Positions 1 to 60,833 of a DNA stretch of 64,000 nucleotides are shown here, piece by piece. How positions within the stretch are numbered: the first letter of the stretch is position 1; each line of letters starts with the position of its first letter. Both the position numbers and the translations under genes were made by a program. The notes below the pieces were generated by a model, which did not search any database, was not told where the DNA came from, and saw nothing but the letters and a program-made list of their open reading frames with translations. Location: positions 19,708,806 through 19,772,805 of the forward strand of contig NC_068978.1 of NCBI RefSeq assembly GCF_016808095.1. Reading direction: 5' to 3'. This DNA is from Vigna angularis. Its lineage: Eukaryota; Streptophyta; Magnoliopsida; Fabales; Fabaceae.

Positions 1-9
1 TGCGATAGA

Positions 10-27
10 TGGCGACTCCACTGGGGA
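10..27 (+). promoter_or_regulatory. Primer-binding site of the Tat/Ogre-like element
   Basis: tggcgactccactgggga starts two bases after the 5' LTR remnant. Ogre/Tat elements typically have a tggcgact... site complementary to a tRNA-Arg 3' end. The tRNA assignment is from memory of the family. The position beside the LTR end is seen directly. Confidence 0.75.
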
Positions 28-2711: not shown

Positions 2712-3267
2712 TCAGCGAAAGAATTCCTGAGCTGGTTGTGGTGGTCTAAGGGAGAGCTCCGTCGAAGGAGCTCTGGTTCGGAATGTGAGAAGCATGGGTG
2801 GAGGGATTTGTCGTTCGTCCCTGTCGTCGATGATGATCGGAACGGGGAATAAGTCCAGCAGCCTCGGCGCCCTCATGATCACCCAATCGTATTCTTTCCA
2901 AAAAAAAAAAAAAAAACAAACAAAAAAATTTTGTCAATAATAAGAGGAGGAGAAAATTTTCAAAAAAAAGATGGAGGTGATCAGGATGCTTACCATACAT
3001 GTATAGCGGCAGTTGTGAGAAGAGAGTTCCAGTGGGGTCCATCTCCGCTTGCCAGCGCCTGACCCGATTGCCATGGTTGTTGAACCAGCAGTGCACGTTG
3101 TACTCATTGGCATTTGCGAAAACCCTTAGTCGAGACGCAATCTCGACAACTTGCGCTCTGCTTGGGTGTGTGACCCCATGGTTGTAGATATTGGTCATCA
3201 TTTTGACCTGATCGTCAGTAGGTCGCCACCGCTGACTGGTGTACCTCTCCATTTCCATCTCGCTCAT
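2712..3267 (-). CDS. WUSCHEL-related homeobox (WOX)-like protein, two coding exons, antisense inside retrotransposon
   Basis: Exon 3267-2994 starts MSEMEMERYTSQRW. It joins exon 2893-2712 through a short intron (2993-2894, GTAAG...AG, T-rich end), and the phases agree (274 + 182 nt), giving 151 residues. Residues about 11-75 form an atypical homeodomain of the WOX kind: RWRPTDDQV at the start, an extended loop, then NVHCWFNNHGNRVRRW as recognition helix, with W, F and Asn-51 kept and Gln-50 replaced by Asn. After splicing, LLDLFPVP (103-110) resembles the WUS box and TELSLRP (136-142) resembles an EAR-type repression motif. These appear only in the spliced frame, which supports the intron. 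The family acts as nuclear DNA-binding regulators of stem-cell identity. Here the gene has its own leader intron and TATA box but lies antisense in a Tat-like element. The role is unknown. It could be an element-borne additional gene rather than a recent host capture. No stop or frameshift was seen. Confidence 0.72.
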
Positions 3268-3285
3268 CTTTCCTCTCTAAGTTTT

Positions 3286-3945
3286 CTGAAACAAAAAAAA
3301 AATAATAAAAAAAGTAAAAAGAACAAAAACATAACGAAAAGCATAACAAAAATTTTTGGTTTCTTTGTTCAGTGTTTTCTTTATGTGTTTTTGTTTCCTT
3401 TTAAGTTTATTTTGTCCGGTCAGTCTTTATTATTTCAGTGTCTGGTCTCGGATCTGTTTCACGGTCCTTGCAAAAAGGGTCCTAAACGGATCTTTGTCCT
3501 TTTGTCCTTGTCCATTTGTCCATGTCCGGTTCATACAAATAATTTTCTCTTTTTAAGTTTTCTGTTTTTATGGGGTACGTGGCATTGTTCTACCCGATTG
3601 TCTCTGCCATACCTTCAAACGAAGGGAGATAAACGTCTGGTTTCCAGCCTATATACCCCTTAAATTTAAGACAGTTGTGTTTTTAAGTGTTTTATGTTTT
3701 GAAAATTAAAAAAAAGAGGAAGAAAGAAGACTCAGAAATAAATGCAGAGAAGGGCAAGATTGAAATAAAAGCAGACAAAGCATAAAGAGGAAAGAGCTTG
3801 CAGAAAAGAAAAACAGTAAAAAAAATGAAGGGCGAAAAGAAAAAAAAAACAAAGAAGGAAGGAAGGAAAGATCGGAAGAGTAGAAAGCTTAAGAGAGGAA
3901 AAACAGAGAAGAAGGAAAAGAAGATTAAAAGCTCAGAAGACTTAC
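3286..3945 (-). other. Leader intron of the WOX-like gene
   Basis: On the minus strand ccag|gtaagt (exon ends at 3946) and tttgtttcag|aaaac (exon resumes at 3285) form a strong donor/acceptor pair 18 nt upstream of the WOX-like start codon. The leader exon (about 4105-3946) contains a short upstream reading frame (ATGAGCTTC...) that meets a stop just after the splice junction, so it would not extend the protein and might dampen translation. Confidence 0.6.
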
Positions 3946-4131
3946 CTGGAAGAGGAAGGGCTTACAGAAGCTCATCGTAGCACTGGGACGCCTCCGAAAG
4001 CACACGGGGCAGAGGCTCCTCTCAAAAATCCAGACGCTCAAAGAAGAGAGAGAAGAGAGAGAAGAGGGAGAAAGAGAAGGATAGACAGAGAGTAAGATCA
4101 GAAAATGTCGCTCGACCCCAAGGAGACACCC

Positions 4132-4139
4132 ATTTTATA
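4132..4139 (-). promoter_or_regulatory. TATA box of the antisense WOX-like gene
   Basis: The minus strand reads ctataaaatggg, about 190 nt upstream of the leader donor site. It is followed by a CT-rich stretch (4090-4030) typical of plant 5' leaders. A start site around 4100-4110 is inferred. Confidence 0.55.
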
Positions 4140-4621
4140 GCCGAGCAAATCCACTGTGGCTACAGTTCCGGTCACTGCAACCGTCTGGTGTCGGTCTAAT
4201 CTTTCTGAGTTCAAAAAAAAAAATTAAATTGAAAATCTGAAAACGGGTAGGGTTTTATTGGGTCAATCCGGCCAAATTCAAGATTTCTTAGATGATCCGA
4301 TTTCACCAAAAAAATAATAAAAAAAAATATAAAAAATGTGATAAATAGAAAATTTTCAAAAAAAATAATAATAAGTGGAGTGATGTAAAATTTGAAGTTT
4401 TCAAAATTGTTTTTCATTTGCATGATAAAGGACATTTTTCAGGTTCATTGGGCCTCATTGTCATGTTAGCCTTCTTTGAACCTAATTCTTCTGAAATACA
4501 AATTTGAGTGAAGAATTATTTTGGCATATTTGTAATTTCACATCACACCATTTTGTTTGATTTTATTCCTTCTTCTTCTACATTCTGAATAAATCTAAAA
4601 ATAAAAAATATTGAAAAAAGG

Positions 4622-5060
4622 GAACAGTGCTCGAGCCCATTAGGCCCAATAGCCTTCGTGGTTTTCTCTCGAGTTTACTTCTTTTGAAAATATGCCAAAA
4701 ATATTTTGTTTTCACATTTTTGCTGCTGAATGATGTTTTGTACAAATTGTCCTGTGTGATTTTCTTTGAATTTGTAGTTAAAAAACAAAATCTGAAAAAA
4801 ATAATAAACAGTGCTCGAGCCCATTAGGCCCAATGGCCTTCGTGGTTTTCTCTCGAGTCTACTTCTTTTGAAAGTATGTCAAAAATATTTTGTTTTCACA
4901 TTTTTGCTGTTGAATGATGTTTTGGACATTTGTTCAATTTGTTTTGTCTGATTTTCTTTGAATTTGTAGTTGAAAAAAATCTGAGAATGAAAGATGAACA
5001 GTTTTTGAGCCCATTAGGCCCCTTTGTCATTTGTGGTTTCTCTTAAACCGGTGCATCTGA
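4622..5060 (+). repeat. Three-copy tandem repeat, about 184-190 bp
   Basis: Units begin with aacagtgctcgagcccatta at 4623 and 4807, and a diverged copy begins at 4997. Each continues with a T-rich segment ending near gaatttgtagt. Weaker relatives of the gcccattgag core appear near 5228 and 5521, so the block once extended further. Confidence 0.75.
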
Positions 5061-5740
5061 ATTTCTGGAAAAAATAAAAAATGCATGTCTATGTAGATGT
5101 TGTGTTTTCAATTCAATTTTCCCTTTTCATTTGTGTGGATAAGTATTTGTGCAAAAAAAAAAAATAATAAATAAAGGAATTCAGACCCTTGTCTGATATT
5201 TTTGTCATGATGGTTAAGAATAGTGTTGGGCCCATTGAGTCTAGTGGTGTTGCAAAATTTTCTTTACTTCAATCTTGTGAAATCCTCTCATAACAAAAAA
5301 AAATGAATTTCTTTTAGCTTGTTCCATAAACTTTGAAAAATAAAAAAAAAAATGTTTTCTTTGTCATCTTCTTGTGACAAGTTCACACGGCTCAGGTCAT
5401 CTGATCCATTGGGTCAATGTGCCTGGTAAGTCCAACTTCCTTCTATGTTACTTCTCCTCGGGTCCGATCCGATCTGGATTTTCCCGTGTCGGAAAGTAAA
5501 AAAAAAAAAGATCGGTTCGGAGCCCATTGAGTCCAATTGTCCTTCTTTGTCAAAAAAAAATACAAAAAGATTTCTTTCCGTAAATTGCATAATTTTCCTT
5601 CAGTAATATATTTGTCAAATAAAAAAAACAGCATAAGTGTGAAAGATACAAATTGTTAACAATGTGTTTTAGTACAGTCTTCCAAATTATCAGCATGATT
5701 TTCTTGGAATTTGTTGTAAAAAAAAAAATAAGAATTAAAA

Positions 5741-6345
5741 AAGCCCAGTTCCTACACTGGCCCACAAAAGCCCAGTTCCTACAATGGCCCACAAAAGCCC
5801 AGTTCCTACACTGGCCCACAAAAGCCCAGTTTCCACATTGGCCGAAAAATCTCAATTTTCACATTGGCCCAGAAAAGCCCATTTCCTATACTGGCTTGCA
5901 AAGCCCAGTTTCCATGCTGGTTCGCAAGGCCCAGTTTCCACATTGGCCGAAAAATCTCAGATTCCACATTGGCCCAGAAAGCCCATTTCCCTTACTGGCT
6001 TGCAAAGCCCAGCTTCCATGCTGACCCGCAAGGCCCAGTTTCCACAAAGGCCAAAAATCTCAATTTCCGCAATAGCTCTCAAAGCCCATTTCCCATATTG
6101 GCTTGCAAAGCCCAGCTTCCATGCTAACCCGCAAGGCCCAGATTCCACATTGGCTGAGAAATCCCAATTTCCGCAATAGCTCTCAAAGCCCATTTCCCAT
6201 ACTGGCCTGCAAAGCCCAGTTCCTATGCTGGCCCGCAAGGCCCAGTTTCCATTGGCCAAGAAATCCCAATTTCCCCAATGGCTCACAAAGCCTATTTCCC
6301 ATGCTGACCCGCAAGGTCCCATTTCCAGGCTGGTCCGCAAAGCCC
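5741..6345 (+). repeat. 27-bp tandem repeat array (agcccagttcc...tggcccacaaa)
   Basis: About 20 copies of a unit such as agcccagttcctacactggc plus ccacaaa. The first copies are nearly exact 27-mers and the later ones drift with 24-30 bp spacing. Because 27 is divisible by three, frames stay open and read as a 9-residue repeat (AQFLHWPTK-like). This is repeat structure, not evidence of a protein. Confidence 0.85.
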
Positions 6346-6349
6346 AATT

Positions 6350-8528
6350 TTCAAAAAAAAAAAGACAAAAAAAAAACAAAAGAAAATATGTTTTTCAACT
6401 AGTCATCATTTTCATTTCATATTACTTTTCTTCATGCATAAAACCAAAAAATACGCAAAAGTTGAGTCATTTGTTTTCGATGCAAATTATCCAATTTATG
6501 AGATTTCAAAAAATGTAATGGATGTCATAATCTCCTGGAGTCAAATGATCAAGTCACATATTCTTAAGAGATATCTGTGTGTGCATTGCTTGAAAACATC
6601 ATCCTTCAGCCCTCGCCAAACCAAAGATTGACCCAATCATGTTCTTGAGCCCAAATAATTGACACCAAGTTTTATACTGGGGCAAATTTTCCATTACCTC
6701 CGCTGGCTTTCATTTGGGAGATACTTGAATCCGTTGGGATGCAAAAAAAAAAAAAAAAAAGAAAAAGAAAAATGACTCTTGTTGAGATCATTTAATCTTG
6801 TCTCCTAATTAATCTTATGAAAATAAAATAATCAAAATTTGAAATGATGTGTGGCCATCTTTCTTCATCCAAAAACAAAAAAATATATATATATATATAT
6901 CCATTGATACCAAATTTGAGCCAATAAGAAATTTCTTTTTAAAATTTACCCAAACAAGGGTTACCATCACAGTAGAAGTCAACTCAAATTGCAGGAAGAA
7001 CACACTTAGTGATCAAATGAAGAGAATTCCTCAAAAGTGAAGTAAAAACGGAAAGAATCACAAAGTGATGGCAAGCAAAGAATGAAATTTGAGAAATGAC
7101 AAGAACGTCAAAACAGTTTTGACGTATAACTGATACAAGGTGCAGATGGTAATTCTTGTTTCAAATAACCCACAAAAATTTATTTGAGCCTTTAGATCAT
7201 TTCTTTCAACACCCTTTAGCCCAAGCCACATTACAAGCTCAATAAAAGTCCACACAGATTGAATAATGGTTGCTTAAATTTTCATAAAGCTTAATTTTCA
7301 GACAAGACAAAATGACTAACAATGCAGTAAAAAAAATGATGAAAAAATAAATGTCCTCGGATGAAGGGACCTCCCTTTTGATTGAGATTATACAAAGGAA
7401 AATTAAGCCAATTGGGGCAATCCTTTCAAGCCAATCATTTCCATATCCATCTCAAATCCATATCCCATTCAAACTCTTCCCCCGATTCCCAAACTAGTGG
7501 GCAACTTTGGGAAACTTTGTGAGTTTCATATGTTTCGGCCCATTCAAAATATGGGGCAACTTTGTTAGTCTCACATTTCTTTCATCTGAATATTCAAAGC
7601 TCATACAAAGACCGGGGCATCCCTTGTCGGGCCTCGCATGATCTTGGTTCGCCCGGAACTTCAAAAATCCATTACCACCAAAATTGGGGCAATTTGCAAA
7701 GCTCACATGATATTCTCACTCCCTGATTCATGACTTATTCCCTCATAATTCCCAGATACATTTGTCCATACCTATCTTTTTACCGTGCTCCAAACTAGAG
7801 CAGCTCCTGAGTATCTACTACCTTACATTGGCATGTGTAACTATTTTAAGGAGTAAGAGGCCCAAGTAGCCAACCCGGTACTCTCCAAATCCTTCCACAT
7901 ATTTGTCCCAACTCTTGATATCAAGCATGTACACACTAACATTTCGTCAAGAAATTTCTAGCACAGAAGCTTCATTTTGAACATTTGACTTCAAAATTTG
8001 ACATCCTTTGCATAAAAGGAAAATGAAAGTCTAAATCTTCATAAATTTGATGATTTCAAAGAAAACAAATTGACACAATCTTCCGGTAAAAAAAAAAAAA
8101 AAAGTCAACATCATGTACATATTTTCATAAACTTTGAATTTACATACAATAAAGTTTTCTCCTCAAATTTCAAAATTTACATCCACCATATCTCTCTTCC
8201 ATATCGAGATTTCAAATCCTTGTACAAAAATGCAACACTTTGTTTATTGATTTCAAAACTTTCAAAAAAAAAATCATCCGAGTCAACATCATGTACATAT
8301 TTTCAAAAACTTTGAATATTTATCAAATCTTCTTCCTACAAAAAGACAAAAAAAAAAAATCAACATGCATCAAAGCTTTCTCCTACAATTTCCAAATTTA
8401 CATCAACCATGCTTCTCATTTCAAAAAAATAAAAATGGACACTCATTTCTATCTCAAAATCAAAAAAAAATCAACATCTCAAAATTTCAAAACAAATGCA
8501 AAAATTTCAAATTCAAAACAATCAAACA
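6350..8528 (+). other. Non-coding interior of the Tat-like element with relic ggggca repeats
   Basis: A-rich runs and no credible gene. Between 7400 and 7710 a diverged unit of about 70 bp containing ggggcaa(c)ttt and ctcacat recurs four or five times. A similar ctggggcaaattttc occurs at 6678. An (at)n run lies at 6883-6900. Confidence 0.5.
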
Positions 8529-8529
8529 A

Positions 8530-9244
8530 TTTTACTTTCTGTCATTGGCATCTCGGCCCTCTGCAAGGCAATGGTCGAGCCCAATTTTACTTTCTGCCAT
8601 TGGTATCTCGGCCCTCTGCAAGGCAATGGTCGAGCCCAATTTTACTTTCTGTCATTGGTATCTCGGCCCTCTGCAAGGCAATGGTCGAGCCCAATTTTAC
8701 TTTTTGTCATTGGTATCTCGACCCTCTGCAAGGCAATGGTCGAGCCCAATTTTACTTTCTGCTATTGGTATCTCGGCCCTCTGCAAGGCAATGGTCGAGC
8801 CCAATTTTACTTTCTGCCATTGGTATCTCGGCCCTCTGCAAGGCAATGGTCGAGCCCAATTTTACTTTCTGCCATTGGTATCTCGGCCCTCTGCAAGGCA
8901 ATGGTCGAGCCCAATTTTACTTTCTGTCATTGGTATCTCGGCCCTCTGCAAGGCAATGGTCGAGCCCAATTTTACTTTCTGCCATTGGTATCTCGGCCCT
9001 CTGCAAGGCAATGGTCGAGCCCAATTTTACTTTTTGTCATTGGTATCTCGGCCCTCTGCAAGGCAATGGTCGAGCCTAATTTTACTTTCTGCTATTGGTA
9101 TCTCGGCCCTCTGCAAGGCAATGGTCGAGCCCAATTTTACTTTCTGCCATTGGTATCTCGGCCCTCTGCAAGGCAATGGTCGAGCTCAATTTTACTTTCT
9201 GTCATTGGCATCTCGGCCCTCTACAGGGCAATGGTCGAGCCCAG
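8530..9244 (+). repeat. 55-bp tandem repeat array, 13 copies
   Basis: Units start with ttttactttctgtcattggt at 8530, 8585, 8640 and so on to 9190, in exact 55-bp steps with a few substitutions per copy. The unit has no stop codon in any forward frame and 55 is not a multiple of three, so all three forward frames are open and encode the same 55-residue period. The resulting frames of 258-366 codons are by-products. Low divergence points to recent amplification. Confidence 0.95.
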
Positions 9245-9405: not shown

Positions 9406-9572
9406 ATTCTGTTAGCCTTGTTCATATTTGTTTTAAATTTTCCTGTTGTTCATTGTCCATTTTGAAATCCATACGAAATTAGTGTTTCTTTCTTTACTTA
9501 GCTTTTACTCCAATAATACGAAAATTCAAAATTATCATATTATCTAATAAAATCTAAGTAAAGAGGGGCAGC

Positions 9573-12500
9573 TGTCAACACCCAATTTCGTCCGGATTGA
9601 TCGTAATAAGTTTATTTTATCTTATTTTATTTTAAGCTATTTTCTTTCGTTTTTATTTATGTTTTTATTTTACTTTTTTTTGTATATATTTAGTTATTTA
9701 ATTTTTTGTTTGTTTTAAAAAATATAAAAATAAATAAAAATAAAAAAAATAAAAAAAACACACCGTAGTCACCCACGTTTTGGACACAGAGATGGTTTTC
9801 ATTTTTTAAGAACAATTGGTGAGGGTCCATGTTTGTTTTTATCGTTTCCATTAAGAGAGTGGTGCACTTGGACGGTTGGAAGAATTTCTGAGCACTGAGA
9901 CAGGAGGTCCCTTGGTGAAGAAGACAGTTAACAAATTTTCCCACTTCAGCATATGCCAATCAAAGCTGCCGACAAAGTTTGCTCCTTCTGCCAATTTAAG
10001 GAGTTCATCAACTTCACTGCAGGGGGAAGATACCTCACGGCCAACACCTTATACACGGCCAACATCCATCCATCTTCATCGCCTTCAGCTTCATCCTTAC
10101 ACTACAGCCCAGCACCTATCACCCTTATACTTCTCATTCTCATCATCCGTTCATTCACCTTTCAACAACCTTCATCTTCCCAGCCATCACTGATCTTAAC
10201 CTCTCTGCTATCACCCATTCTTCACCTTTTGCTCCCAATCAATCATCATCTCCTCATTCCTTACACCTCGTAGCCATCTTGACACTGAACCAGCACTTAT
10301 CAACTTCATTCAATTCCTTCCAGTTTCACTTCCACCATCCCACTTCCAATCTCCCACTGAAACTGTCGACACCTCTGATGATCATACCATGGCTGAACTC
10401 CAAACTCTGGAGGAGCCTCCATCTCATCCTCCCCAACCCAAACAGGGGGGTGACGACAGCCGAGGGGCATTAGGCTCCTCTGATCCAAAACCAGTAAACT
10501 CCCTTCCACCACTTTTATCCCTAGACAGGACCAAAACCCTCCTTCATCCATTACTTTCAGCTCCATACACCGTCTCCAACACCTATAATTTTCATCCCAC
10601 CTCTTCCTCATCACTCGCGGCCAACACCACCATATTCACTCCAAAATTTCCTTTTCACACCCAACTTCAACCTCATCTTTCAACCATCAAAAACCCCCAA
10701 CCATCAAACTCTCACTAGCTATTACAATTCATCCTTCATTTTGGCCAAAGTCATCTACAAACCCATCTTCACCTATTCCAACAGAATCTCAAATAACTCA
10801 AGAGTAAAAAACGAGACGCAGGAAAAGGCCCTGGTGATGACCAGCGGTATCGCCAACGTCCTGATGGCGAATAGCATCGCGACCTAAGGCGAGGGATTTG
10901 CTTCCCGCGTGCGAAGAAGAGAAAGGAAGAGAGGTCTGGATCCAGTGGCCCGGTGGCCGTTTCGTCGCGGTGGCTGGATCGGAGGAGCAGCGGCTTGTGA
11001 GCGAGAGCTGACGGAGGCAATCCCCTTCCTGCGTCACCGTCGTTGAAGAAAGGAAGAGGGAAGGAAGCGAGAGTCGTAGCGGCGAGGGTCATTACCAGTG
11101 ACGCCGTGGGTCACGATTCGCGGTGGCCGAATGGTTGGAGATTGAGTCATGGCCGTGGGTGGCAGAGGTGGATGTCCCTATTTTTCTTTCATTCAAAGAA
11201 GAAGACCCTAACACAAATGAGAGGATAAATGAGTTTCTGAACGTAGAGGCTTTGGACCTAGCTAGGGGGCCGCGTCTTTGCCATATACACGACTCCCCTG
11301 CACCCCCTTTCAGTTGGGCTTAAGCCCACTCTGCAAATAAAGATAAAAAAAAAAAGAATTGGACCGAACACACATTTCAGGATGCACCTCCGTTTTCATA
11401 TTTACACTCTTTGGTTTCCATATTTACACTCTTTGGCAGATATAAAGTTGAAGAAAAATGATGTTGATCCAAACTAAGGAGCCTCAAGTTTATCCTGCAC
11501 TTCGTTGGGTTTGTTTCTCTTGCGTTTATTTATTTTTATTTTATTTTGTTTTATTATTATGCTTTGTTTTTTTTTATTTTATTTTTATTTGTTTGGTTAT
11601 TAACTTTTATTATGTAACTCCTTGTATGATAGTTCCACACCCCTTTGTTTTATTTATATCTATTAGGTTAATTTGTTTCGTTTTGCATAAAAATTACAAA
11701 AAAATAAAAAAAAACATATAAAACTTTAAAAAAATATTTAATGATATAAATATCGGTATAAGTACTCGTGCGATCGTACGTATCAGCTTAGTACTTATTG
11801 CCCAAATATAAAATAAACAAAAAAGGCCGTATGAGTACTCGTGCGATCGTACGCATCAGCCTAGTGCTCATTACGCAAAACAATAAAAAATAAGAAAAAA
11901 GCCGTGTGAGTGCCCGTGCGATCGTACGCATCAGCCTAGTACTCATTACGCAAAACAATAAGAGGAAAAAGCCGTGTGAGTGCTCGTGCGATAGTACGCA
12001 TCAGCCTAGTACTCATTACACAAAAAATATAAATATTACAATGAAAATACCAAAAACATATAAAATCTTCAAAAACTAAAAAACATCTATTTTTCAAACT
12101 ACAAATAATATTGCCTTGCAGAACTACGTGATCCTTGATTCTCCATCAAAAGTGGAGATACGTAGGAGCAAGGCCAGTCCTTGTCAGGCTCATTCTCCCA
12201 AAAATCCAAATTATCCATAACAAGTTTTCAAACAATTTTCCAAGCAAATTTCTCAAACAGTTTTCTAAATGAACTACGGAACCCTGATTTCTCATTCTGA
12301 ATGAGAATACGTAGGAGCAAGGTCATTCCTTGTCGGGCCCAAAAATATAAAAAAAAATATATATTTTGTTTCTTTAGAGTTTTATTTTAAGGGAAAGTTA
12401 AACACTTTGAAAACCACATCCATATTCGCGCATTTAGTTAAAGGTACTGCCTTAAGGCAGGCGTTGTAGGGTGCTAATACCTTCCCTACACGTAACCGAC

Positions 12501-12665
12501 TCCCGAACTTAGAATCTCGATTTCGCAGGCCATGTCTTATCATTTTATGGTTTTTCCGTAGCTTTCCAGAATAAACTATGGTGGCGACTCCAAAATCTCT
12601 TTTCTTAAAAACTCGTTTCTTTTTCCTTTTCGGATCGTCGTCCCGTCGCGATTCCGGTTGCGACA
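9573..12665 (+). mobile_element. 3' LTR of the Tat/Ogre-like element
   Basis: Begins TGTCAACACCC directly after the polypurine tract and ends TTGCGACA, 3093 bp. Two copies of a motif around gatacgtaggagcaagg (about 12160 and 12308) are typical of Tat/Ogre LTRs. Open frames inside (9876-10718, 10769-11092) are proline/serine-rich or have no recognisable domain, and I do not call them genes. Confidence 0.8.
11754..12020 (+). repeat. Four-copy repeat inside the LTR, about 65-75 bp
   Basis: The core gtgcgatcgtacgcatcagc plus ctagtactcatta occurs four times (about 11768, 11838, 11916, 11984), separated by A-rich spacers of changing length. The core is far more conserved than the spacers. Confidence 0.85.
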
Positions 12666-12670
12666 ATATG

Positions 12671-34101: not shown

Positions 34102-34189
34102 CCGACCTTAGCTCAGTTGGTAGAGCGGAGGACTGTAGTTGGATTTAACAGACATCCTTAGGTCGCTGGTTCGAATCCGGCAGGTCGGA
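34102..34189 (+). tRNA. tRNA-Tyr: tRNA-Tyr (anticodon GUA) with a 15-nt intron
   Basis: The acceptor stem ccgacct (34102-34108) pairs with aggtcgg (34182-34188), with discriminator A at 34189. The D-arm has agctcagttggtagagc and the T-arm has ctggttcgaatccgg. Anticodon GTA is at 34135-34137. A 15-nt intron (34139-34153) follows G37, the normal site in nuclear tRNA-Tyr genes. The mature part is 73 nt before CCA addition. It decodes Tyr codons UAU and UAC. Confidence 0.95.
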
Positions 34190-59178: not shown

Positions 59179-60833
59179 TCAAGGATCCGCCAACTTCATC
59201 ACTGTGGATAATTGCTCTACTTCTCCACCTAAATAATGCTTGAGACGTTGACCGTTCACCACCCAGCTTCTTTGTTGATCACTAGCAGCTGGATCAACTA
59301 ATTCAATTGCTCCATGTGGACACACATTCTTCACTATGAATGGTCCGGACCATTTTGACTTCAACTTTCCAGGAAACAGCTTCAATCTTGAATTGAACAA
59401 TAGCACCTGCTGTCCTGGATTGAAAATTTTCTTTATCAACTTCCTGTCATGATAGAATTTTACCTTTTCTTTGTAGTTTCTGGATGAATCATATGCATGC
59501 AACCGCATCTCTTCAAGTTCCAACATTTGCCTTCTACGCTTATTTTGAGTTTTAGAAGGATAAAAATTCAGAAATTTAAGCGCCCATAAGGCTTTATGCT
59601 CCATCTCCACTAGTAAATGACATTCTTTCCCATAGACAAGCTGATAAGGTGATAAACCCATAGATGTCTTCATTGCAGTCCTGTATGCCCAGAGAGCATC
59701 ATCAAGTTTATGTGATCAGTCCTTTCTTGACGTAGCAACTGTTTTCTCCAATATTCGCTTGATTTCTCTGTTAGATACTTCACCTTGCCCATTAGTCTGT
59801 GGATGATAAGGTGCAGCTACCTTATGTCTCACACCATAATGTTTGAGTACCTTAGATAGCTGATAATTGCAAAAATGAGATCCTTCATCACTAATAAGTA
59901 CTCTAGGAGTTCCAAAGCATGTAAAGATTTGCTTCTTTAGAAATTTAATCACAGTGCTTGCATAATTTTTAGGACACACCAATGCTTCTACCCATTTACT
60001 CACATAATCTACTACCATAAAAATGTATTCAATTTTGAAAGATGGTGGAAATGGTCCTACAAAATCAATGCCCCAACAATCAAAGATTTCAACTTCTAGA
60101 ATGCCCTGTAATGGCATTTCATGACGTCTTGAAATATTTCCAGTTCTTTGACACCTGTCACAATTCCTGGCATGATTATGAGCATCTTTAAATAAAGTAG
60201 GCCAATAAAAACCTGATTGGAGAACTTTTGCTGTTGTTCTTTCTCCATTAAAATGTCCTCCATAAGGTGAATCATGGCAATGCCAGAGAATTTCTTCAGC
60301 TTCTTCATTTGTAACACATCGCCTCAAGAGATTATCTGCTCCTATTTTAAATAAATAAGGGTCATCCCAGATAAACTGCTTGGCATCATGCAAAAATTTC
60401 TTTCTTTGTTGCCAATTAAGATCTTTTGGAATTACCCCTACAGCTTTAAAATTTGCCATATCAGCAAACCACAGCCTCTTTTGAATATACATGAGTGTTT
60501 CATCCGAAAAAGATTCCCAGATTTCTGTTTCTTTGCTAGTAACCTCAGTATTAACTAGCCGGGATAAGTGATCAGCAATCAAATTTTCACTCCCCTTTTT
60601 ATCATGGATTTTTAGATCAAACTCTTGCAGTAGTAACACCCATCTAATCAGACGTGGTTTAGAATTTGGCTTTGTCAACAAATATTTTATAGCTGAATGA
60701 TCTGTGTAGATAATCACCTTAGACCCTATGAGATAAGATCTGAATTTCTCTAAAGCATAAACTATGGCTAGAAACTCCTTCTCAGTGGTAGCATAATTTA
60801 ACTAGGCATCATTCAACACCTTGTGTAAGACCC
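59179..60833 (-). pseudogene. Athila-type Ty3-gypsy pol fragment (RNase H C-terminus and integrase)
   Basis: Minus-strand reading: [19 protein letters not shown] and [12 protein letters not shown] (RNase H end), then the integrase zinc finger (H...H as [17 protein letters not shown], then C..C as NCDRCQRTG). The core domain follows: [10 protein letters not shown] with the first Asp, [12 protein letters not shown] with the second, and a Glu near [20 protein letters not shown]. The C-terminal part has [13 protein letters not shown] and [21 protein letters not shown], typical of the Athila lineage. Integrase inserts the cDNA of the element. Two nonsense changes are visible: TAG at 60804-60802 and TGA at 59718-59716 (usual Trp of KDW). 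The N-terminal part of pol is cut off at 60833 by the next element. Confidence 0.9.

Follow-up and report, generated by a model that had tools for sequence, protein, structure and literature searches.

A WUSCHEL-related homeobox gene under purifying selection, carried antisense by a dispersed LTR retrotransposon of Vigna angularis

How does a complete-looking WUSCHEL-related homeobox (WOX) gene, with a promoter and introns of its own, come to lie antisense inside a retrotransposon, and does its protein matter there? The question arises from a 64,000-nucleotide stretch of Vigna angularis DNA, here called the window. A first-pass annotation had described on its minus strand, in this order, a TATA box, a CT-rich leader, a donor/acceptor pair, a start codon, a homeodomain, a second intron and a tail exon, and all of these parts are present as first noted (Table 1). 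Joining 3267-2994 to 2893-2712 on the minus strand, with the ATG at 3267, yields a protein of 151 residues, and the motifs LLDLFPVP and TELSLRP are readable in the spliced frame only. Due to an upstream ATG in exon 1, the leader may carry an upstream open reading frame of 12 codons. Chance is excluded as an explanation of this gene structure.

Table 1. Features of the gene and of its carrier element, in window coordinates.
Feature	Position	Strand	Basis and remarks
5' LTR, last 7 bases	1..7	+	Remainder lies upstream, C9:19705719-19708805 (L032:6914-10000); ATATG precedes the LTR
Primer-binding-site-like TGGCGACTCCACTGGGGA	10..27	+	Sequence; identical motif after the LTR in L037
Exon 3, coding part (tail with WUS-box-like and EAR-like motifs, stop 2714-2712)	2712..2893	-	Spliced translation, copy alignment, dN/dS
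EAR-like ELSLRP	2742..2759	-	Motif match in spliced frame
WUS-box-like LLDLFPVP	2838..2861	-	Motif match in spliced frame
Intron 2, GT-AG, phase 1	2894..2993	-	GT and AG in 31/31 copies; near-identical position in host WOX2-like gene
Exon 2, coding part	2994..3267	-	Spliced translation, copy alignment
WUSCHEL-type homeodomain	3055..3243	-	Pfam, PDB sequence match, Foldseek
Intron 1, in leader	3286..3945	-	CAG/GTAAGT donor at 3945, TTTCAG acceptor at 3286
Leader exon 1, CT-rich, upstream ATG at 3975	3946..4110	-	Sequence; transcription start is a guess
TATA box	4134..4139	-	Sequence; TATAA at aligned place in 23/31 copies
Tandem repeat array inside element	5738..6353	+	Repeat analysis
55-bp tandem repeat array inside element	8527..9243	+	Repeat analysis
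Polypurine-tract-like AAAGAGGGGCAGC	9560..9572	+	Sequence
3' LTR (TGTCAACACC...TGCGACA)	9573..12665	+	LTR alignment
Target-site duplication ATATG, 3' copy	12666..12670	+	Matches ATATG before 5' LTR

The gene lies antisense inside a complete LTR retrotransposon. The paired LTRs of this element measure 3.1 kb, a target duplication of 5 bp flanks it, and both a primer-binding site and a polypurine tract are present. The two LTRs differ at 9 of 3,083 aligned sites, and the final 7 bases contribute one more difference. If plants accumulate about 1.3e-8 substitutions per site and year, the insertion is roughly 0.1 million years old. The LTR pairs of two other copies are 99.3% identical over 2,281 and 99.6% identical over 2,024 alignment columns. 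Repeats around GACGCTCGTCC were also seen between the primer-binding site and the gene, at 1399-1699.

The first-pass annotation had found neither gag nor pol in the element. This is true of the window copy, inside which tblastn with gag (L046 as query) and with a gypsy RNase H-integrase gave no match; the copy lacks a stretch of ~2-2.7 kb in which sibling copies have a gag frame. It is not true of the family, at least 9 of whose 30 loci retain the C-terminal end of gag adjoining the gene, as seen in flanks of 1.5 kb (L005, L007, L009, L018-L022 and L027). A sense gag frame is found in two of six other copies with wide flanks (L043 and L046, the same copies as L005 and L009), with Retrotrans_gag matches at about 1e-14. 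No pol turned up in any carrier with Pfam on part of the ORFs and tblastn with one gypsy RNase H-integrase over all the loci retrieved, a search that a divergent pol could escape. Beyond the source of the query, the RNase H-integrase matched in L031, ~8 kb upstream of the window element, and in L048, ~12 kb from the gene of L013, both times on the strand opposite to the carrier. To the extent covered, then, the family is non-autonomous, no pol having been found in the carriers. We take the primer-binding site and the LTR ends to resemble those of Tat/Ogre/Retand elements; together with the antisense ORF, and in part on this assumption, the anatomy of the carrier would fit the Tat/Ogre label. 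TRP28 was absent from the part of the carrier ORFs scanned with Pfam.

The genome (448 Mb, 33 contigs) was searched with the window protein. Scoring 150 of 1,011 first-look candidates gave 300 matches, those listed being 73-96% identical; the copy count is a lower bound, and the window's own copy is absent from the matches listed. With a noncoding promoter query, 40 of 293 candidates were scored; every one of these 40, the window among them, was a match, with identities of 85-100%. Element DNA was found on the promoter side of the gene in 27 of 30 loci, on the other side in 27 and on both sides in 26, with neither side in L012 and L013. The idea that an antisense WOX-type gene is being spread by a mobile element thus agrees with dispersed copies that share the same flanks, and the proposed count of element-linked copies comes to at least many dozens.

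The structure of the gene was compared in 31 copies, namely the window and 30 loci picked by protein similarity. Both the GT and the AG of intron 2 are retained in every one of them, and 29 of the 31 still splice to a frame of 149 aa or more, L008 and L017 having stops in exon 2. L012 has a frameshift that alters its tail. The first intron and the promoter are less uniform across copies than intron 2: a literal AGGTAAG, the intron-1 donor, occurs upstream in 26 of the 31 copies, and the acceptor AG stands at the aligned place in 21 but not in the other 10. Several annotated proteins share the splice joint of the window gene, and P0009 and P0023 are among those with other joints.

In 27 of the 30 loci, the match used for ranking extended no further than residue 91 or 92, and exon 3 therefore offers a fairer test of selection on the protein. 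In 30 sequences (L012 was left out for its frameshift), exon 3 gave a pS of 0.193, a pN of 0.042 and a JC dN/dS of 0.195, with the caveat that copies with an intact exon 2 may be the better-preserved ones. Intron 2 differs by 0.177, similar to the synonymous sites. In a codon bootstrap, the interval for the raw pN/pS of exon 3 was 0.119-0.363, and the ratio reached 1 in none of 2,000 replicates. Third positions carried 3,598 changes vs 1,353 and 1,292 at the other two, the ratio stayed at 0.17-0.29 in every divergence bin from the nearest to the farthest pairs, and the control ratios from intron 1 were 0.76-0.97. The dN/dS of 0.118 in exon 2 is biased by the selection of loci, and that of gag, 0.34, comes from one pair. 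The opposite-strand frame that shares third positions gave 0.30 in exon 3 and 0.21 in exon 2, vs 0.22 and 0.14 for the gene frame. With a dN/dS of about 0.2, divergence between copies, which the first-pass annotation had proposed to measure, is not neutral. The WOX-like protein has been under purifying selection during the spread of the element.

What kind of protein is being preserved? The window protein matches the Pfam Homeodomain profile at E=4.9e-7, better than the cutoff, and its top sequence matches in the PDB are WUSCHEL (9e-11) and STENOFOLIA (1.7e-10). When Foldseek was run with a model of P0001, the closest annotated relative, the ten best matches were WUS/STENOFOLIA chains, one of them with E<0.001. 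The AlphaFold model (mean pLDDT 53.8; residues 80-152 below 50) is usable for the homeodomain only, and the tail is predicted to be disordered. Profile and fold searches hence both group the domain with WUSCHEL/STENOFOLIA, as the earlier homeobox assignment had it. The motifs of the tail resemble the defined WUS-box and EAR motifs; among the 58 family proteins of 130-190 aa, the WUS-box pattern occurs in 48, as does the EAR pattern.

A protein search with the window protein gave 57 clusters, the names among the matches listed being all V. angularis; the clusters stand for 256 annotated sequences, with several annotations per species and hence not 256 loci. Profile searches returned 73 proteins at E<=10 and 80 at E<=1e-6, and the names among the matches listed are all from Vigna: V. 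angularis, V. radiata (P0067) and V. umbellata (P0076, P0079). The 111 pattern matches in viral contigs included no relative. The family falls into three divergent groups, A (that of the window, with WFNNHGNR), B (WFQNHGNR) and C (WFQNYGYR), and members of all three retain the homeodomain, the WUS-box and the EAR motif. Group C is also dispersed over the chromosomes, with 31 places listed at >=80% identity over >=90 residues, 11 of them with an internal stop. The group-A copy L013 has a different flank; in L049, which covers its surroundings, the gene lies antisense beside a gag-like sense frame (4322-5749 (+) and 6464-7099 (-)), a weak match (E=0.015).

WUS reads bases via R38, N90, R94 and, less clearly, Q89, according to the text of PMC7203112. 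The equivalents of R38, N90 and R94 are all retained in the window protein. K92 of WUS is replaced there by Gly, and Q89 by Asn in the aligned group-A proteins; those of B and C have Gln. On account of the Asn and Gly, the affinity or specificity for DNA may differ from that of WUS. Recognition helix 3 reads NVHCWFNNHGNR in the window protein vs NVFYWFQNHKAR in canonical WOX proteins. As this helix is non-canonical while R38, N90 and R94 are kept, the protein is WOX-derived and no ordinary WOX orthologue. With WUSCHEL/STENOFOLIA (PDB 6ry3, 6wig) it has in common the homeodomain fold, the three contact residues and the WUS-box-like and EAR-like motifs; it differs in a homeodomain identity of ~40%, in helix 3, in being very short and in being borne by a mobile element.

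For the source of the gene, the adzuki genome was searched with the WUS homeodomain, which gave 11 loci at 63-84% identity, the next ones being at 38-59%. C11:3752270 is the sole one of these 11 canonical WUS-clade loci among the group-C matches listed. It falls in the host gene L051 (C11:3751080-3752560), which reads as a 197-residue WOX2-like protein; the name WOX2 is our assumption from its motifs. L051 resembles the window gene and group C in having an intron ~25 codons after the homeodomain, a WUS-box-like TLNLFPLHP and, in common with group C, RWSPTREQ; unlike the window gene, it has a canonical helix 3 and a longer linker. Past the equivalent of R94, the intron follows after 26.3 codons in L051 and 23.3 in the window gene, in phase 1 in both, the L051 donor having been set by eye with two later GTs that would yield other phases. 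Arabidopsis WOX2 presumably agrees with the chosen donor. Group C scores 180 against L051, 134 against WUS and 145 against STENOFOLIA; in the same score comparison, groups A and B gave no clear preference for L051 over the other two. The WOX ancestry of the element gene is established. Because the introns of the window gene and the host WOX2-like gene almost coincide in position, capture at the DNA level is probable, and the simplest account of the source is probably that a WOX2-like gene was taken up as DNA, intron included. The captured gene may then have been L051 or its ancestor.

To the gene structure, the dispersal, the young LTRs, the purifying selection and the WOX ancestry, we apply the reading that a captured WOX gene has become an accessory gene of a non-autonomous Ty3/gypsy element, kept by selection and coding for a DNA-binding protein, with a probability of about 0.68. 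A WUSCHEL-clade gene, probably WOX2-like, would have been captured with its intron into a Vigna Ty3/gypsy-type element, antisense to gag, and would later have evolved as the accessory gene of that element, presumably expressed from its own promoter as a spliced mRNA. The product would be a small protein with a homeodomain, in which the three main DNA-reading residues are kept, and the two tail motifs. WUS-box and EAR motifs recruit co-repressors in WOX proteins. Most likely, the protein would enter the nucleus and there bind and repress targets relevant to the element, to the presumed benefit of the latter; candidate targets are its own or related LTRs, silencing genes and cell-state genes. 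As R38, N90 and R94 are kept and Q89 and K92 altered, a DNA-binding repressor with shifted specificity would be the natural reading of the residues. The window element would be a recent, complete, non-autonomous insertion relying on pol from elsewhere.

WUS-type TGAA repeats were considered as self-binding sites in the LTR and rejected. The LTR holds 6 of them vs 1.64 expected, a number reached in 0 of 200 shuffles (24 motif-region pairs were tried), and the promoter stretch holds 2 vs 0.34 expected. However, 0-6 such repeats also occur in each of 16 background stretches of the window that have the same size, and the sites of the window LTR are not common to two other LTRs, for which reasons this idea was dropped. 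TAAT and the G-box showed no excess in the motif-count test. Separately, the LTR contains at 11739-12041 an array of conserved repeats with an imperfect dyad, with 3 to 6 units of the exact motif per LTR stretch and 28 such units over the window and the other stretches analysed. Judged by its repeats, it is a candidate regulatory site and a lead only.

The gene could also be a passenger, i.e. a host gene that was captured by ordinary transduction and hitch-hikes without function. Plant LTR elements are known to capture genes, usually in one or few copies (text of PMC7264820), and 2 of the 31 copies bear stops in exon 2. This explanation is unlikely and already disfavoured, given an exon-3 dN/dS of 0.195, a third-position excess at all divergences next to intron-1 controls of 0.76-0.97, an intron 2 intact in 31 of 31 copies, and a homeodomain, WUS-box and EAR motif kept in three divergent groups. 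The same codon-shaped constraint bears on the proposal that the antisense RNA, rather than the protein, matters by pairing with the genomic RNA and tuning silencing. Apart from the spliced frame, the opposite frame that shares its third positions is the sole one with low ratios; since the constraint is shaped by codons, an RNA role alone does not predict the pattern. We regard this proposal as quite improbable, even though action through dsRNA has been proposed in the text of PMC7264820 for antisense transcripts of such genes. RNA and protein roles could coexist.

Selection might instead act at the level of the host, some retro-WOX copies having been domesticated and thereby yielding the low dN/dS. 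The 57 clusters for 256 annotated sequences (not 256 loci) would suit such retention, as would the expanded WUSCHEL-related family of V. reflexo-pilosa, for which RNA-seq support was required (text of PMC10357499). Yet the gene is present in recent insertions whose LTRs are nearly identical, and close pairs of copies show much the same constraint as distant ones, as expected if a mobile lineage carries it, so that retention by the host is an unlikely source of the low ratios. An ordinary host WOX gene with a retrotransposon inserted into or beside it, finally, would have the plain anatomy with promoter and introns seen here, but it is hardly tenable: 26 of the 30 dispersed copies have element DNA on both sides, the 11 canonical WUS-clade homeodomains, with 63-84% identity to WUS, are separate loci, and the dispersed copies refute it.

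Compared with known systems, the captured accessory gene is closest in arrangement to the antisense ORFs of Retand/Grande/RIRE2-type elements, which likewise are extra genes antisense to gag-pol in elements with internal tandem repeats, and of which the Grande gene has its own promoter and a nuclear protein (text of PMC11963269 and PMC7264820). Those ORFs mostly have TRP28 or SMC-like domains and no clear host source, whereas the window gene is WOX-derived, spliced and found in Vigna. The main text of neither paper mentions homeobox or WUS, and that of PMC11963269 does not mention Vigna, Phaseolus or Fabaceae. As in orchid Ty3/gypsy elements with a captured RNA demethylase, a host-type gene has been fixed in a multicopy lineage of one genus (text of PMC9289625). 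The screen of 121 angiosperm genomes in that paper found 15 extra domains, including B3 and LONELY GUY-type YgdH, and its main text does not mention homeobox or homeodomain. Because the screen took reverse transcriptase as its starting point, and none was found in the carriers of the window gene, an element of this kind would escape it. The main text of the adzuki genome paper (PMC5389050) contains no mention of homeobox or WOX, and no title or abstract describing a WOX gene in a retrotransposon was found in a search without most subscription journals and all preprints. Gene capture by plant Ty3/gypsy elements is known; that a stem-cell-type transcription factor is kept by selection is well supported as the new point.

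Most antisense extra genes of plant retrotransposons are without recognisable source or function (text of PMC7264820). The present gene comes from a class of developmental regulators that has been studied in depth and whose contacts with DNA are known, and function thereby becomes testable. If an element spreads many copies of a stem-cell-type regulator, the numbers of WOX genes counted in Vigna genomes would also have to be interpreted differently. An expansion of WUSCHEL-related homeobox genes has been reported in V. reflexo-pilosa (PMC10357499), and the section on it draws no link to transposons. According to the text of the same paper, known proteins were used to screen the repeat library, and the gene set was limited to genes that had RNA-seq support and no more than 20% overlap with repeats. 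Because of this filtering of the library, the published expansion may be the present element family; if they are retro-WOX copies, the expanded genes would be transcribed ones. Tentatively, one may go further and suppose that a lineage of Vigna elements made a stem-cell or embryo regulator their own transcription factor, which alters cell state or opens LTRs in germ-line founder cells (embryo, meristem) and so lets them spread. If this doubtful but possible reading were true, the V. reflexo-pilosa expansion would be the same element family.

Elsewhere in the window, the RNase H and integrase of another Ty3/gypsy element lie at 59716-60801 (-), and a tRNA-Leu gene at 34102-34189 (+) is the sole Rfam match at the gathering threshold.
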